Part shown: positions 28,707 to 33,476 of the stretch, piece after piece
Numbering within the stretch: the first letter of the stretch is position 1
Layout of the letters: every line of letters starts with the position of its first letter
Assembly: GCF_003986955.1 (NCBI RefSeq)
Contig: NZ_PIPN01000001.1
Coordinates: 124,001 to 188,000, forward strand
Length of the DNA stretch: 64,000 bases
Source: Aliidiomarina sedimenti
Lineage (GTDB): Bacteria > Pseudomonadota > Gammaproteobacteria > Enterobacterales > Alteromonadaceae
Direction: 5' to 3'
Program-made: the position numbers and the translations under genes
The notes under the pieces: model-generated
Seen by the model: only the letters and a program-made list of their open reading frames with translations
The model's database searches: none
Told to the model about the DNA's origin: nothing

Positions 28707-28793
28707 GCCCGGGTGGTGAAATTGGTAGACACAAGGGATTTAAAATCCCTCGCTCGTAAGAGCGTGCCGGTTCAAGTCCGGCCCCGGGCACCA
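28707..28793 (+). tRNA. tRNA-Leu(UAA), attachment site of the adjacent element
   Basis: An 87-nt class II tRNA: acceptor GCCCGGG/CCCGGGC, anticodon stem AGGGA/TCCCT with loop TTTAAAA (UAA), variable arm CGCTCGTAAGAGCG, T-loop TTCAAGT and encoded CCA. Its last 56 bp (28738-28793), from the anticodon stem to CCA, recur exactly at 30943-30998. Confidence 0.97.
28738..28793 (+). repeat. attL-type direct repeat (inside tRNA-Leu)
   Basis: 56 bp identical to 30943-30998. The flanking bases differ on both sides (G vs C before, A vs T after), which defines the limits. Identity starts in the anticodon stem-loop, a common crossover location for tRNA-specific integrases. Confidence 0.93.
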
Positions 28794-28813
28794 ATTTTTT
28801 ATATTTTAAATCA

Positions 28814-28839
28814 ATATTTTATATGGCCATATAAAATAT
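28814..28839. repeat. 26-bp perfect palindrome beside attL
   Basis: The sequence ATATTTTATATGG is followed directly by its exact reverse complement, with no spacer. It starts 21 bp after the tRNA CCA. With no loop and no following T run it is unlikely to be a standard terminator. A protein-binding or recombination-accessory site is possible (inference). Confidence 0.7.
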
Positions 28840-28869
28840 AGAGTTGTTTGAATTCACTAAAAAAGCAAC

Positions 28870-28878
28870 TGTTTAAGT
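28870..28878 (+). repeat. TGTTTAAGT repeat, copy 1
   Basis: First of four same-orientation copies of TGTTTAAGT inside the element. 77 bp right of the attL repeat. Possible arm-type recombinase site. Confidence 0.5.
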
Positions 28879-28897
28879 CCGTTTTAATTTTGTTTGA

Positions 28898-28910
28898 TGT
28901 TTAAGTTTCT
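28898..28910 (+). repeat. TGTTTAAGTTTCT repeat, copy 2
   Basis: Second copy; it shares 13 bp (TGTTTAAGTTTCT) exactly with copy 4 near the right end. 28 bp from copy 1. Confidence 0.55.
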
Positions 28911-29034
28911 GCTCCCCTCTAGCGTGTCTAAATCCACTGCTATTTTCATAGTTATATCGTTTTAGCCAGAGCACGATTTTTGCTCGATTTCATATGCATT
29001 CTGTTCGGTGCCCCCTTGCTTTTTCGATGCCTAC

Positions 29035-29047
29035 TGTTTAAGTTTTC
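29035..29047 (+). repeat. TGTTTAAGTTTTC repeat, copy 3
   Basis: Third copy, differing from copies 2 and 4 only after the first 11 bp. Preceded by AC, as in copy 1. Confidence 0.5.
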
Positions 29048-29366
29048 CTTTATAAGCCGCATTCCGTAAAAATCTTATCTCATTTTTCAATACTCGAAAC
29101 ACCTAAGCTCTTCGGTTAATTCATAGAGATTTCTTCAAAAATTTCAAAGATCTAACACTTTAAACTGATGGTTATCAACACCACGATACTTTATCTGTGA
29201 AATGGCCTGGACAGGTTTGTATAACTTGCCGCTATAATAAAAAGTCTAAATTAGAGGTTGCATTTCGCGTAATATCGCACTACTTTGTAAAAACCTTTGC
29301 ACCCGCACATCTCTAGGTTGGGATCGTGTTGAAACGGTGGAAGGAGAGACAAAAGAGAATTTTACT

Positions 29367-30560
29367 ATGAGCAGACTAAGTCTGAACAAGGCCGTTGCGC
29401 CTGCAAGCAACAAAACCAAAGTTCAATTCCATTCACTGCGCAATATTTCTAGCCCAGATGATCTATCAAATGATCGGAAAGTATTAACAGGGCATATGAA
29501 AGCGTCAGAAATTCTACAAATCAGCACTAATGACAACGTACGAGACTACCTTCTGGCTGTCGATGGTAAGAAGAAAGTTCCTACAGCTGTCCATCGAGCT
29601 ATTACAGCGACCCTTGAAAACTCACCTGAGAAATTTTCAGTGTTGAACGGTGGAATTACCATCGTAGCTGAAGCTTATGATGTCGATGAGAAAGTTAGAG
29701 AATTGACGCTAATCAACGCGAGCATTATTAATGGTGCTCAAACGCAAGGAATTCTGAGGGACTATATTAACACGCTAGAAGATCCTAAGGATTTTCCAGA
29801 TATTCATATCACTTTCGAATTGATAATTTGCACTGATGAGCCTTTGATAGCAGAAATATCGATAGCGCGAAACTTTCAGAATGACGTTAAGATGTTGTCA
29901 ATATCTGGAAAGCTTGGCTCATTTGATGATTTAGCTAAGTCTATAGAGAAGCATTTTGATGGGTTGAAGCTAAGACTATCGGAAACAGACTCTCCTGACG
30001 ATACACTTGATACCGAGAAGCTATTGCAAGTTATAACAGCTCTGACTCCTGAGGAAATTTGGACTAAGTTAGGGCGAGGTGATTTAGCTAACAAGAATTA
30101 CGCATACAACCAGAAAACGAAATGCTTAAAGCAGTTTACAGAAATGGCCAAAAGCGTCAAAGACGGCACTGCAAATGCAGATACTAAAGACGCGTATGAG
30201 TTCTTCGTAGAGATAGCACCGTCAGCATGGGAGCTATATCAAAAATGGAAAACACATGAGGGCTTCATCGGAACAGGTATCAGGTCTATTCATAGAGACG
30301 GCAAAAAAATCCTGGACGTTCCAGATGGTATTGTTTTTCCAGCATTAGCTGCTCTCGCAGAATTTGTAACAAAGTCTGAAGATGATAATTGGCTTCTAAC
30401 GATACCAGATATATTTGATGACAGAGACCTAATCAGCGCTATCAAATCAACTTACCAAAACGTTGCTGACCACAAGCCATATGTAATGGGCAGGTCGAAA
30501 GCTGCTTATTCATCGTTAATCCAAGTTACCGCTATTTATAAGCGATTACTGAATAAGTAA
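29367..30560 (+). CDS. AIPR-like (abortive infection phage resistance) protein
   Basis: A 397-residue protein (407 if the GTG at 29337 is used). It fits the AIPR family pattern: NVRDYL (57-62 from the ATG), NGGITIV (94-100), SIINGAQT (119-126) and ISIARNFQNDVK (164-175). These correspond to the family's 'NvRdyL...F...NNGITi...IvNGaQT...IarN.QNpVk' landmarks. It has no signal peptide or membrane helix. It is somewhat shorter than many AIPR proteins. The ATG is preferred (AGAG 9 nt upstream); GGAGAG sits too close to the GTG. It is the only substantial gene between the att repeats, is A+T-rich and has its own terminator. Antiphage function is inferred from the family name and context only. Confidence 0.8.
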   Translation: MSRLSLNKAVAPASNKTKVQFHSLRNISSPDDLSNDRKVLTGHMKASEILQISTNDNVRDYLLAVDGKKKVPTAVHRAITATLENSPEKFSVLNGGITIVAEAYDVDEKVRELTLINASIINGAQTQGILRDYINTLEDPKDFPDIHITFELIICTDEPLIAEISIARNFQNDVKMLSISGKLGSFDDLAKSIEKHFDGLKLRLSETDSPDDTLDTEKLLQVITALTPEEIWTKLGRGDLANKNYAYNQKTKCLKQFTEMAKSVKDGTANADTKDAYEFFVEIAPSAWELYQKWKTHEGFIGTGIRSIHRDGKKILDVPDGIVFPALAALAEFVTKSEDDNWLLTIPDIFDDRDLISAIKSTYQNVADHKPYVMGRSKAAYSSLIQVTAIYKRLLNK

Positions 30561-30569
30561 GTACGTATC

Positions 30570-30601
30570 GTCTGGGAGAGGTGGTCTTCTCCCAGACTTT
30601 A
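30570..30601 (+). terminator. Terminator of the AIPR-like gene
   Basis: Perfect 10-bp stem GTCTGGGAGA / TCTCCCAGAC, 8-nt loop, followed by TTTAATAATTTATT. It begins 9 bp after the stop codon. Confidence 0.88.
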
Positions 30602-30878
30602 ATAATTTATTAGCTCAACAAAAGAGCAGTTAACATTTTCATTATGAAGTGAGTTAGATCTTGCAGTCAGATCAACACCAAAGTCGGACATTGGCTTAGG
30701 TAAATCCCCCTTGAAGCTCTACTGTCTGTAGAAAATTCTTAAGGTTTCTAAAAGAGGCAATATCTTCGTGTGCTTCGATACGGTAGACCTTTTATATTTC
30801 ATTGGCGTTGCGATACTTATCAGAAGGCATTTATTGGGGAAGAGGTCAGAGGTTACAAACTGTGAAATCGGAATCATG

Positions 30879-30891
30879 TGTTTAAGTTTCT
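30879..30891 (+). repeat. TGTTTAAGTTTCT repeat, copy 4
   Basis: Right-end copy, 51 bp before the attR repeat and identical over 13 bp to copy 2 at the left end. Confidence 0.55.
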
Positions 30892-30942
30892 AGTGTGCTG
30901 TATAAGCTATTGATTTTAAAGTGTTTGTTTTAATGACATGGC

Positions 30943-30998
30943 ATTTAAAATCCCTCGCTCGTAAGAGCGTGCCGGTTCAAGTCCGGCCCCGGGCACCA
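30943..30998 (+). repeat. attR-type direct repeat (orphan tRNA-Leu 3' end)
   Basis: Exact 56-bp copy of the tRNA-Leu 3' part, from anticodon loop to CCA. It lacks the acceptor 5' strand and D-arm, so it is not a tRNA gene. It marks the right boundary of the element. Confidence 0.93.
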
Positions 30999-31425
30999 TT
31001 TCTTAGTTTCTCTAGTTCTCCTGATGTCTTTAAATCTTTTTAAAACAAGCTAATTGGCCACTTCTTTGTGCTGCCCCGTTGGTTGTTCATAGACCTTCCT
31101 GTATTCAAATAACAGTCAGAAACTATCTATGACTCTCGGCCCACTCCAATGATCTGGTCAAATCGCCGCTTACCTGCATGTTTGGATACCTAGTCTGCTT
31201 CATTACACCTTTAACTTGTGCGGGGTAGACCCTAAGCGATGAAGTTCTGGGTAGTTGTCGGTACCCAACTAACTCAACCGACATCACGAAATAAAAAGCT
31301 AGGCGGGCATTTTTGCTTGATATATACAAAGTCTTGTGGTAATGAAATTTAGATTGGCGAAGAATCTACAACACGCTTGTCGCGATTTTTTAGCAAGTTA
31401 AAGGCAAAAATACTGAGGGAAATGT

Positions 31426-32472
31426 ATGAAAGTCAGATTATTAGCGTTGTCTGGTCTATTTTTCTCCAGTATTACTTTTGCTGAAACCGCGGTGATATGT
31501 GAAAGCTGTAGTACGGAATCTGCTGCAGAAGCTTTCGCAAAGTCGAACGCGAACACCCTTCAATGCTCGTCGGAATTTGGACCCGATATAACATGCCAAT
31601 CTATCAACAAAGTAATTACCTTTGTTGATTCCAATTCAGGGCAGGCGTATAAATACAACGTGTTCCACGAAAGAGATTTCCCATGGAGTGTGCAAGCTGA
31701 AAGAATACCTCTTTCGTCAGATAGAGAAGAGTCATTTCGAATATTAATGAAGTTTGTCAGGGATTCAAATAGTGCGATAACGGAAGCCTCTGCTGATAGT
31801 CATGAAATATTGGGCTCGTTTAATATCAGTTCATCTAGTGCCAACAGATCTTCAAATTCTGACGGTGCTTGTCCGACAGACACGGCTTTAAGTGCTCTTA
31901 CCAATCCAAACACTCTTGATTCCATTCAAAATAGAGCCGCGATCGAAATCGGGACAAAATTGATAAGTAGAAATAACGACCTGAATTTAAACCCAGTAAA
32001 AATCGACAGAAGCTATTCATTAAGTTTTTTGGGTTTAACCAGCTCAATCTTGGCAGACAGCGCCTCAAGAGACCCGTCTTTTATCGTGACGTTTGATGAG
32101 TCGGAAAGACCGGGGTCGAGGAAAGATTTCTTCGCTTATCAAGTAAGCATACTAGGGTTTGATGAACAAAATCTTCCAATTATGAATTTCAATCTTTTGG
32201 GCGCTTCGCAAGTCGCCGGATACAGACTAGAAAATCTATCAGGTAGCAGCGGGTCCTTGGCAATTGAGAATGAATGTGTCAAGGAGAGGCTCGAAGAGGC
32301 GGTAAATAACGGCGTCCTAACGCCAGCTGTAAACCTGGGTGGCTCAGCAGGTGGCGAGCCAGCTCCTGCTCCCCCAGGCCCTGGTTGGACGTTCCCTACG
32401 AGCGGTGGATGCCAGATCGTTGACTTTTATCAAGGTGGGACGTTGTTGTACACATTTAGGGTTTGTAGTTAG
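31426..32472 (+). CDS. Unrecognised secreted protein
   Basis: 348 residues; I do not recognise a family. A clear signal peptide (MKVRLLALSGLFFSSITFA, cleavage after Ala19) directs it to the periplasm or beyond. A CxxC (Cys25/28) and Cys47/57 follow. The middle is Ser/Asn-rich with no membrane helix. The C-terminus has a Gly/Pro/Ala linker (GGEPAPAPPGPGW) leading to a short end domain, GGCQIVDFYQGGTLLYTF, with Cys329 and Cys347 able to form a disulfide. A+T-rich and just right of the tRNA-Leu element, so probably acquired. GAGGGAA precedes the ATG. Confidence 0.75.
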   Translation: MKVRLLALSGLFFSSITFAETAVICESCSTESAAEAFAKSNANTLQCSSEFGPDITCQSINKVITFVDSNSGQAYKYNVFHERDFPWSVQAERIPLSSDREESFRILMKFVRDSNSAITEASADSHEILGSFNISSSSANRSSNSDGACPTDTALSALTNPNTLDSIQNRAAIEIGTKLISRNNDLNLNPVKIDRSYSLSFLGLTSSILADSASRDPSFIVTFDESERPGSRKDFFAYQVSILGFDEQNLPIMNFNLLGASQVAGYRLENLSGSSGSLAIENECVKERLEEAVNNGVLTPAVNLGGSAGGEPAPAPPGPGWTFPTSGGCQIVDFYQGGTLLYTFRVCS

Positions 32473-32523
32473 GTTATTCCCGAATGAAGTTTGCCACTAC
32501 AGGTTTGAGGCAAAATGTTTCAT

Positions 32524-32541
32524 GCCCTCTATGAGGGCTTT
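32524..32541 (+). terminator. Weak hairpin after the secreted-protein gene
   Basis: GCCCTC-tat-GAGGGC followed by TTTACA, about 50 bp after the stop. The short stem and weak T run make it only a possible terminator. Confidence 0.4.
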
Positions 32542-32606
32542 ACACCCCACCCAAAATCACCCACACTAGGTTCATAATAATTTGAATTCAGGAATAGTAG
32601 TGGACC

Positions 32607-33476
32607 ATGCTGGACGATCTTTCTTACGCTCAAAAACAGCGCCTCGCGTACATTGATTTTTGCTTATTGTTTAAAGGCTCACTGTGCCGCATTGATTTGG
32701 TAGAAAAGTTTGCGGTGGGGCTATCCGCGGGCTCGCGTGACTTTAATCTCTATAAAGAGCTGGCCCCTGACAATCTCAGCTATGACGTCAAGTTGAAACG
32801 CTATTTCCAGACTGCAGAATTCCAACCGCTTTTTGAGCATGACGCGCAGCGCACCCTCGCGAAACTGGCGAATAACATTTCGGATGGGTTTGATGCTATC
32901 GGCGATGTGACATACCCGGTTGAGCCTGCGTCGAATTTAAATGTGCCGAACATCTTTTTAGTGGCCAAAGTGGTGCAGGCCACCCTGAATAAATTCGCAG
33001 TGGAGATTGAATACACGTCGCTGACTAGCGGCAACGACAAACGCGTTATTGTCCCGCATTCGATTGTCGATAACGGGCTGCGCTGGCATGTTCGTGCGTT
33101 TGATCGGAAATCAGAAAGCTTTCGCGATTTTGTTTTAACCCGAATTCATAAAGTAAATCGTGCCACCGAGGCGAAGCCGTTTGAAAGCCCTGAGGCTGAC
33201 CATGAATGGAATCGCATCATTACCTTGCAGTTTGAGCCACACCCCAACAACATCAAATACCCGGCCGCGATAGAACTCGATTATGGGATGCAAAATGGCA
33301 TGTCCGAAGTCAATGTGCGCGCGGCGATGGTCGGGTATCTGCTCAGGCGCTGGAATGTCGATTGCACCGAAAACGCAGAGCTAACTGGCCCGGAATTTCA
33401 GCTCTGGTTACGCAACCGTCATAGCTTAATGAATACCAGCAACCTGGCGATAGCGCCGGGGTATAAGGTGGCTTGA
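32607..33476 (+). CDS. WYL-domain transcriptional regulator, BrxR/CapW type
   Basis: A 289-residue protein with the three-part BrxR/CapW layout. An N-terminal winged HTH (QKQRLAYIDFCLLFKGSLCR, then SRDFNLYKELAP) is followed by a central WYL domain with LRWHVRAFDRKSESFRDFVL (the W-H-V version of the motif). A C-terminal WCX-like extension ends in LLRRW and LWLRNRH. These proteins repress BREX, CBASS and other defence operons and sense a ligand through WYL. No BREX or CBASS genes are nearby; the closest defence-like gene is the AIPR-like gene 2 kb upstream. Confidence 0.85.
   Translation: MLDDLSYAQKQRLAYIDFCLLFKGSLCRIDLVEKFAVGLSAGSRDFNLYKELAPDNLSYDVKLKRYFQTAEFQPLFEHDAQRTLAKLANNISDGFDAIGDVTYPVEPASNLNVPNIFLVAKVVQATLNKFAVEIEYTSLTSGNDKRVIVPHSIVDNGLRWHVRAFDRKSESFRDFVLTRIHKVNRATEAKPFESPEADHEWNRIITLQFEPHPNNIKYPAAIELDYGMQNGMSEVNVRAAMVGYLLRRWNVDCTENAELTGPEFQLWLRNRHSLMNTSNLAIAPGYKVA

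Follow-up and report, generated by a model that had tools for sequence, protein, structure and literature searches.

The question raised by this locus is how a small DNA segment with no visible integrase came to lie between two copies of the end of a tRNA gene, and whether it still moves. The analysed stretch, hereafter the window, is 64 kb long. It contains an intact tRNA-Leu(UAA) gene at 28707–28793 on the plus strand (ARAGORN; Rfam tRNA, 58 bits), which serves as the insertion target. The 3' part of this gene, from the anticodon loop to the CCA end, forms the left att copy (28738–28793) of an exact 56-bp direct repeat, and the right, or distal, att copy lies at 30943–30998 on the same strand; no further site for the last 14 bases was found within the 64-kb window. 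The 2,149 bp between the repeats have a GC content of 38.4%, compared with 51.4% for the window, and hold a single substantial gene, which belongs to the AIPR family; the remaining frames of at least 50 aa measure 51–72 aa and lie on the strand opposite to AIPR. These coordinates and this composition confirm the preliminary description of a 56-bp tRNA-Leu(UAA) 3'-end repeat around A+T-rich DNA with one substantial gene. Low GC content extends beyond the right repeat to ~32 kb. The first 273 bp past the right att (30999–31271) have no match in the sister species G010; homology resumes at 31272, and from there on the low-GC DNA outside the repeat is common to the window's genome (G000) and G010. 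The A+T-rich stretch 31426–33476 carries one gene without a Pfam match and one WYL-domain gene and is ~96% identical to G010; its genes were not found downstream of tRNA-Leu(UAA) in the other congeners examined.

The insertion site was compared across the genus at 18 tRNA-Leu(UAA) sites in 17 congeneric genomes, for up to 40 kb downstream, with short contigs at three of the sites (G005b, G006, and G011). A second copy of the tRNA end (at least 16 bases, same strand) was present at three sites: the window, G008, and G003. At the G003 site (L117/L118), tRNA-Leu(UAA) is occupied by a prophage of ~37.5 kb, which has an exact repeat of 59 bp and encodes a 344-aa integrase next to the tRNA; the seven prophage proteins tested comprise integrase, terminase, portal, major head, tape measure, tail fibre, and endolysin. 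The sister species G010, with flanks 96% identical to those of G000, has no AIPR gene. After the same tRNA it carries ~10.9 kb (L037, 4045–14972) with Lamassu-type LmuA, LmuB, and weak LmuC matches and two frames judged by eye to be IS3-type. Integrase remnants lie at two points within it, one of which shares 62.7% identity with the G003 integrase, and the search for a distal att copy in G010 found none. A possible island of ~9 kb follows tRNA-Leu in G007 (L045, 5494–14783), with a 443-aa integrase frame near a 25-bp att-end match; the stricter scan (at least 16 bases, same strand) listed no second att there.

Because a prophage, a Lamassu-type island, and the AIPR elements occupy the same tRNA, tRNA-Leu(UAA) is a recurrent integration site. 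Other cargo at this site was what the preliminary description had suggested looking for, and the G003 prophage, the G010 island, and the AIPR-plus-Upx element of G008 are such cargo, which supports its view of the locus as the product of integrase-type insertion. From species to species within the genus, this one tRNA-Leu site can hold AIPR, AIPR plus Upx, Lamassu-type genes, or a prophage. Two identical copies in direct orientation would also arise without integration if replication slippage or unequal exchange had locally duplicated the tRNA 3' end. The low GC content of the insert, the different occupants of the same site in congeners, and the differing affinities of the two G008 copies nevertheless argue against local duplication, which we regard as very improbable.

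The affinities of the G008 copies deserve a closer description. Between the G008 tRNA and its distal att there are 13 mismatches in 56 positions. The distal att differs at 2 of 56 positions from the G000 and G010 tRNAs, and the G008 tRNA at 6 or more from that of every other congener examined. Because the two copies differ to this extent and the distal one is near the G000 and G010 tRNAs, they have separate histories, which is expected from integration and not from slippage. Crossover placement in tRNA genes follows a sublocation rule, and the position of the crossover decides which half is foreign. If that position was the anticodon loop, at the start of the repeat, the tRNA half of G008 would be the incoming one. 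The 3' half of the G008 tRNA-Leu(UAA) gene (L038, 11901–11987), with its CCAG/CTGG T-stem, does not resemble that of any congener examined and was possibly replaced by integration. A donor search for this half in 196 family genomes, a sample from which G008 itself is absent, returned one genome (G020) that matches the T-arm and acceptor end with 1 mismatch in 30; its variable arm differs.

The gene carried by the element runs from an ATG at 29367 to 30560 on the plus strand and encodes 397 aa with a clear match to PF10592 (85.4 bits against a cut-off of 25, E 7e-24). A GTG start at 29337, which would give 407 aa, is unlikely because, in the homologue from G008, an in-frame TAG lies four codons ahead of the ATG. 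The AIPR domain was found in all five members of alignment A2. The profile match of the window protein starts at about position 245 of the AbiU (PADLOC) and phrog_1841 profiles, and the protein is a short form without the ~245-residue N-terminal part of longer AIPRs; the MzaE profile NF041935 scored 22 bits against an equivalog cut-off of 1050. A strong hairpin terminator follows the gene at 30570–30597 on the plus strand (66-nt stretch folded, −22.4 kcal/mol, z −4.64). The 130 nt before the gene are somewhat more conserved than fourfold sites (p 0.015; p 0.08 for 345 nt) and are probably its 5' UTR; the leader RNA showed no unusual fold, and an Rfam scan gave nothing over the gathering score besides two tRNAs.

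AIPR proteins are classed with abortive infection proteins. The family assignment made in the preliminary description stands, with PF10592 as its basis, and the abortive role that it attached to the family is weakened, because the short form does not have the N-terminal region that has been named as the toxin: one review ascribes an N-terminal HEPN toxin (RNase) domain to AIPR proteins (PMC3506569). No HEPN family was matched in the window protein at E ≤ 5 in Pfam. The protein has R37-x5-H43, with H43 replaced by Ser in L056 and L145, and no invariant R-x4-6-H was found among the aligned members. The structure model is weak (pLDDT 66), and we draw no mechanism from it; Foldseek with this model gave 0 matches at E ≤ 0.001, and searches of PDB by sequence gave nothing below E 0.17 with the protein or 8.5 with the profile. 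A figure legend on P4-satellite defence hotspots names AIPR (PMC9122126).

The distribution of the gene bears directly on whether it has moved. Among 16 congeneric genomes it was present in one, G008, at the same tRNA. The G000 and G008 proteins are identical at 390 of 397 residues and the genes are 95.5% identical (dN 0.0076, dS 0.20, dN/dS 0.04), a pattern of substitution indicating strong purifying selection. The core flanks of the same two genomes are ~72% identical. The adjacent DUF1538 core gene has a dS of 3.2 between G000 and G008 and 0.19 between G000 and G010, and two shorter core genes gave a dS of −1 for G000–G008 (taken as saturated) and 0.05 and 0.13 for G000–G010. Because the AIPR dS of 0.20 lies far below the core-gene value of 3.2, these divergences indicate that the gene passed from one species to another at about the time of the sister split. 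The opposite pattern, in which all close relatives carry the gene at core-gene divergence, had been named in advance as the finding that would speak against a mobile element, and it is not the pattern observed.

Beyond the genus, strong matches were confined to G000 and G008 among 395 sampled family genomes, and two further family genomes gave weak matches in longer frames of 576 and 605 aa. At E ≤ 1e-15, the gene was matched in one of 394 order genomes (G000) and in two of 398 phylum genomes (G000, and G854 at 48% identity); these two samples overlap, and G008 appears in neither. A single-protein query of viral_contigs returned nothing, and an alignment query returned four records with relatives at 46–48% identity; a further relative (47.7%) lies on a Tritonibacter plasmid. 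All of these relatives at 46–49%, namely the four viral_contigs records, the plasmid, and G854, have the same short length, which points to a short AIPR subfamily present on viral_contigs records and a plasmid. In the viral_contigs set, L143 has an integrase 1.2 kb from the AIPR relative, L144 has a terminase, and L146 has, by reading, an integrase-like frame 5 kb away; L146 and G854 encode one and the same protein and do not count as independent records.

The second instance, in G008, is longer. Its element of ~6 kb carries AIPR and a convergent Upx gene, with the distal att 6.0 kb from the tRNA; the Upx gene encodes 1,224 aa and matches PADLOC Upx over residues 17–1204 (E 3e-148). In the window, 30614–30835 on the minus strand is a decayed remnant of the AIPR–Upx junction, with the frame broken (blastn against the 16-kb G008 locus, 164 of 229 columns identical, 72%, E 1e-21); within it, about 30726–30835 matches the last ~36 Upx codons, with a weak protein-level match (E 0.03). 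The right inner end, 30879–30942 on the plus strand, is likewise related to that of G008 (44 of 61 columns identical over 30879–30938, E 0.004). Because the G008 version is longer and the window retains this remnant of the Upx region, the window element is a reduced form, and the alignments identify it as having arisen by deletion from a two-gene element or from a relative of one. The suggestion that an element carrying only AIPR is a compact functional minimal unit is therefore not supported. With Upx beside AIPR in G008, Lamassu-type genes at the G010 site, and relatives near phage genes, an anti-phage role of AIPR is likely from the company that it keeps.

Divergence between the two elements is uneven along their length. 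At the left end, G000 and G008 differ at 22 of 136 positions, similar to the AIPR fourfold sites (22 of 162, p 0.62), and the left end and AIPR may, on these counts, share one history. To the right of the terminator, divergence is higher (52 of 216, Fisher p 0.013 against the same fourfold sites), which indicates that the elements were not transferred uniformly over their whole length and speaks against a simple transfer of the entire unit as it now stands. Both this unevenness and the deletion signalled by the Upx-region remnant favour a reading in which the window element is an immobile end stage of decay: an integrase-bearing island lost its integrase and most of its genes, AIPR was kept as useful, and AIPR with the left flank was later exchanged between species by homologous recombination. 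Core flanks that are so divergent between G000 and G008 would, however, be a poor substrate for such exchange.

Integrase genes were sought in the element and in the genomes that carry it. PF00589 had three matches in G000, none in the element: two of 307 aa and 342 aa, Xer-like by size, and one of 417 aa near tmRNA. None of the three serves tRNA-Leu by position. The 417-aa frame adjoins the tmRNA gene (L049, G000:C6, 10211–11895), probably as part of another island. When 11 integrase sequences were compared with the element by tblastn, no match fell below E 0.19, and the same queries, as a positive control, do find the G010 integrase remnants; these 11 are the sequences recovered from 36 tried (31 loci plus 5 frames by coordinates), and the null result is limited to them. 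The G008 element is also without an integrase, with five PF00589 matches in that genome, none in or near the element, and no tblastn match better than E 0.5 with the 11 integrases. No conjugation genes were seen in the window element, and no second, tandem or accreted, element was seen beside it. The earlier claim of a non-autonomous element without a visible integrase is thus supported by both searches. Its proposed movement in trans by an integrase elsewhere stays hypothetical, since no integrase placed for the tRNA-Leu site was found in G000. For the decay reading, this missing integrase and the integrase remnants of G010 at the same site are favourable; the failure of queries that detect those remnants to detect any in either element is not, nor is an att repeat still identical at 56 of 56 positions or an end motif intact in both species.

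This end motif, TGTTTAAGT, occurs four times in the 64-kb window, always on the plus strand and always within the element. The copies at 28870–28878, 28898–28906, and 29035–29043 start 77, 105, and 242 nt past the left att, and the fourth, at 30879–30887, ends ~55 nt before the right att that it adjoins. Shuffles of the window gave 0.45 expected copies, and none of 100 reached four; among 248 overlapping bins, that of the element alone had any 9-mer at four same-strand copies; and of 2000 Markov-1 sequences, one reached four copies and none gave a 9-mer with the end arrangement. The G008 element has three copies at the left and, at the place matching the fourth window copy, two at the right, in the same orientation at both ends as in G000. 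The A+T-rich 8-mer TTTTATAT, counted on both strands, also occurs four times at the G000 ends and is not found at the G008 ends. Arm-type sites of tyrosine integrases lie at inner ends in direct orientation, and TGTTTAAGT, by analogy, suggests candidate integrase arm-type sites; it is a hint rather than a proof, because TGTTTAAGT was singled out post hoc and the two elements have their left copies from common descent.

These two considerations also favour reading TGTTTAAGT as a regulator operator or a leftover of common ancestry, with the att repeats alone mattering. A survey of family genomes adds to them. The paired motif gave 27 matches in 17 of 295 genomes and lies by tRNA-Leu only in G000 and G008; in the 15 others, no tRNA was present in the 3-kb locus, save for one tRNA-Gln 1.4 kb away. 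Because a reversed control pattern gave 10 matches in 10 genomes, most of the 27 may be chance. The presence of the motif at both ends in one orientation in both elements, its failure to arise in shuffles, and the different repeated motif of the G003 prophage at comparable positions (TTGGAAGA and neighbours, within ~110 nt of both att sites) count against the non-arm reading, which we lean away from while granting it appreciable weight. The distinct motif at the G003 ends likewise speaks against the G003 integrase as the helper.

A helper integrase with the same end motif was not found in genome_contigs, viral_contigs, or the family genomes. The pattern TGTTTAAGT followed after 45–75 nt by TTTAAAATCCCTCG had no match in viral_contigs; its single match in genome_contigs, in a Pseudocolwellia tRNA cluster, was judged on reading to be chance. 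These pattern scans may omit the window's own and near genomes. None of the 27 paired-motif loci, of ~3 kb each and checked with a crude text motif for integrases, had a tRNA and an integrase-like frame alongside. The left-end DNA had no match in phages or plasmids, and among 236 family genomes it was present in G000 and G008 only.

Taken together, these results establish that the tRNA island is real, has well-defined bounds, is without an integrase, and belongs to the cis-mobilizable kind. That it is a CIME-like island at tRNA-Leu(UAA) on which an integrase acts or acted in trans is our preferred explanation, which we hold to be as probable as not; the immobile end stage of decay is nearly as likely. 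Under the preferred explanation, an integrase made elsewhere, by a phage or island using tRNA-Leu(UAA), would recombine the tRNA 3'-end repeats, probably binding the TGTTTAAGT arm sites at both inner ends first. Recombination at the repeats would excise or insert the cassette, and phage or DNA uptake would carry it from cell to cell. The ancestral cassette would have carried convergent AIPR and Upx defence genes, of which the window copy would have lost Upx and kept AIPR under purifying selection. The arm-site role, the movement in trans, and the anti-phage action of AIPR are the parts of this scheme that we infer, and the data hold only two instances of the element, in G000 and G008.

A broader proposal, speculative and in our view unlikely, is that a family of 2–6 kb recombinase-less defence cassettes with complete docking sites (a tRNA core and TGTTTAAGT arms at both ends) hitch-hikes on the integrases of phages and islands using tRNA-Leu(UAA), as MITEs do on transposases, with anti-phage cargo. 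Many defence genes sit in islands without visible means of movement. The cassettes of G000 and G008, which are without an integrase, occupy the same tRNA, and have att repeats, a common end motif, and transferred cargo, offer a small testable case for recombination in trans.

Among known systems, PICI and P4-like phage satellites have their own integrase together with phage-hijacking or packaging genes; no integrase, hijacking gene, or packaging gene was seen in the window element. Its protein shares the AIPR domain with AIPR, AbiU, and MzaE proteins (PF10592; PADLOC AbiU; NF041935) and differs from them in being short, without the ~245-residue N-terminal part. No published description of the element was found among titles and abstract openings, subscription papers being mostly outside the literature searched. 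Islands in tmRNA genes with defence cargo, one of them moved by a jumbo phage (I55 class), resemble it in having an RNA-gene target, direct repeats, and defence cargo without transfer genes, but they encode a tyrosine integrase and AlpA, neither of which is present here, and the window element is far smaller (PMC12595487). MITEs and CALINs are transposase- or integrase-less hitchers that follow the same logic, with the recombinase supplied in trans; their recombinase and site type are different, the window element using tRNA att sites (PMC11389934). The closest counterpart is the CIME, which, as defined there, retains attL and attR, has lost its integration genes, derives from an ICE or IME, and is mobilised in cis by an accreted element (PMC5704250). 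Like a CIME, the window element keeps attL and attR at a tRNA 3' end without integration genes, which we infer were once present. Unlike a CIME as described there, it has no tandem integrase-bearing partner seen alongside and only one intact gene. It is CIME-like by its att sites and absent integration genes; descent from an ICE or IME would be conjectural, the element retaining no trace of what it came from. It is thus a known kind of element, a CIME-like tRNA island, to which the AIPR cassette pair at tRNA-Leu(UAA) adds an example.
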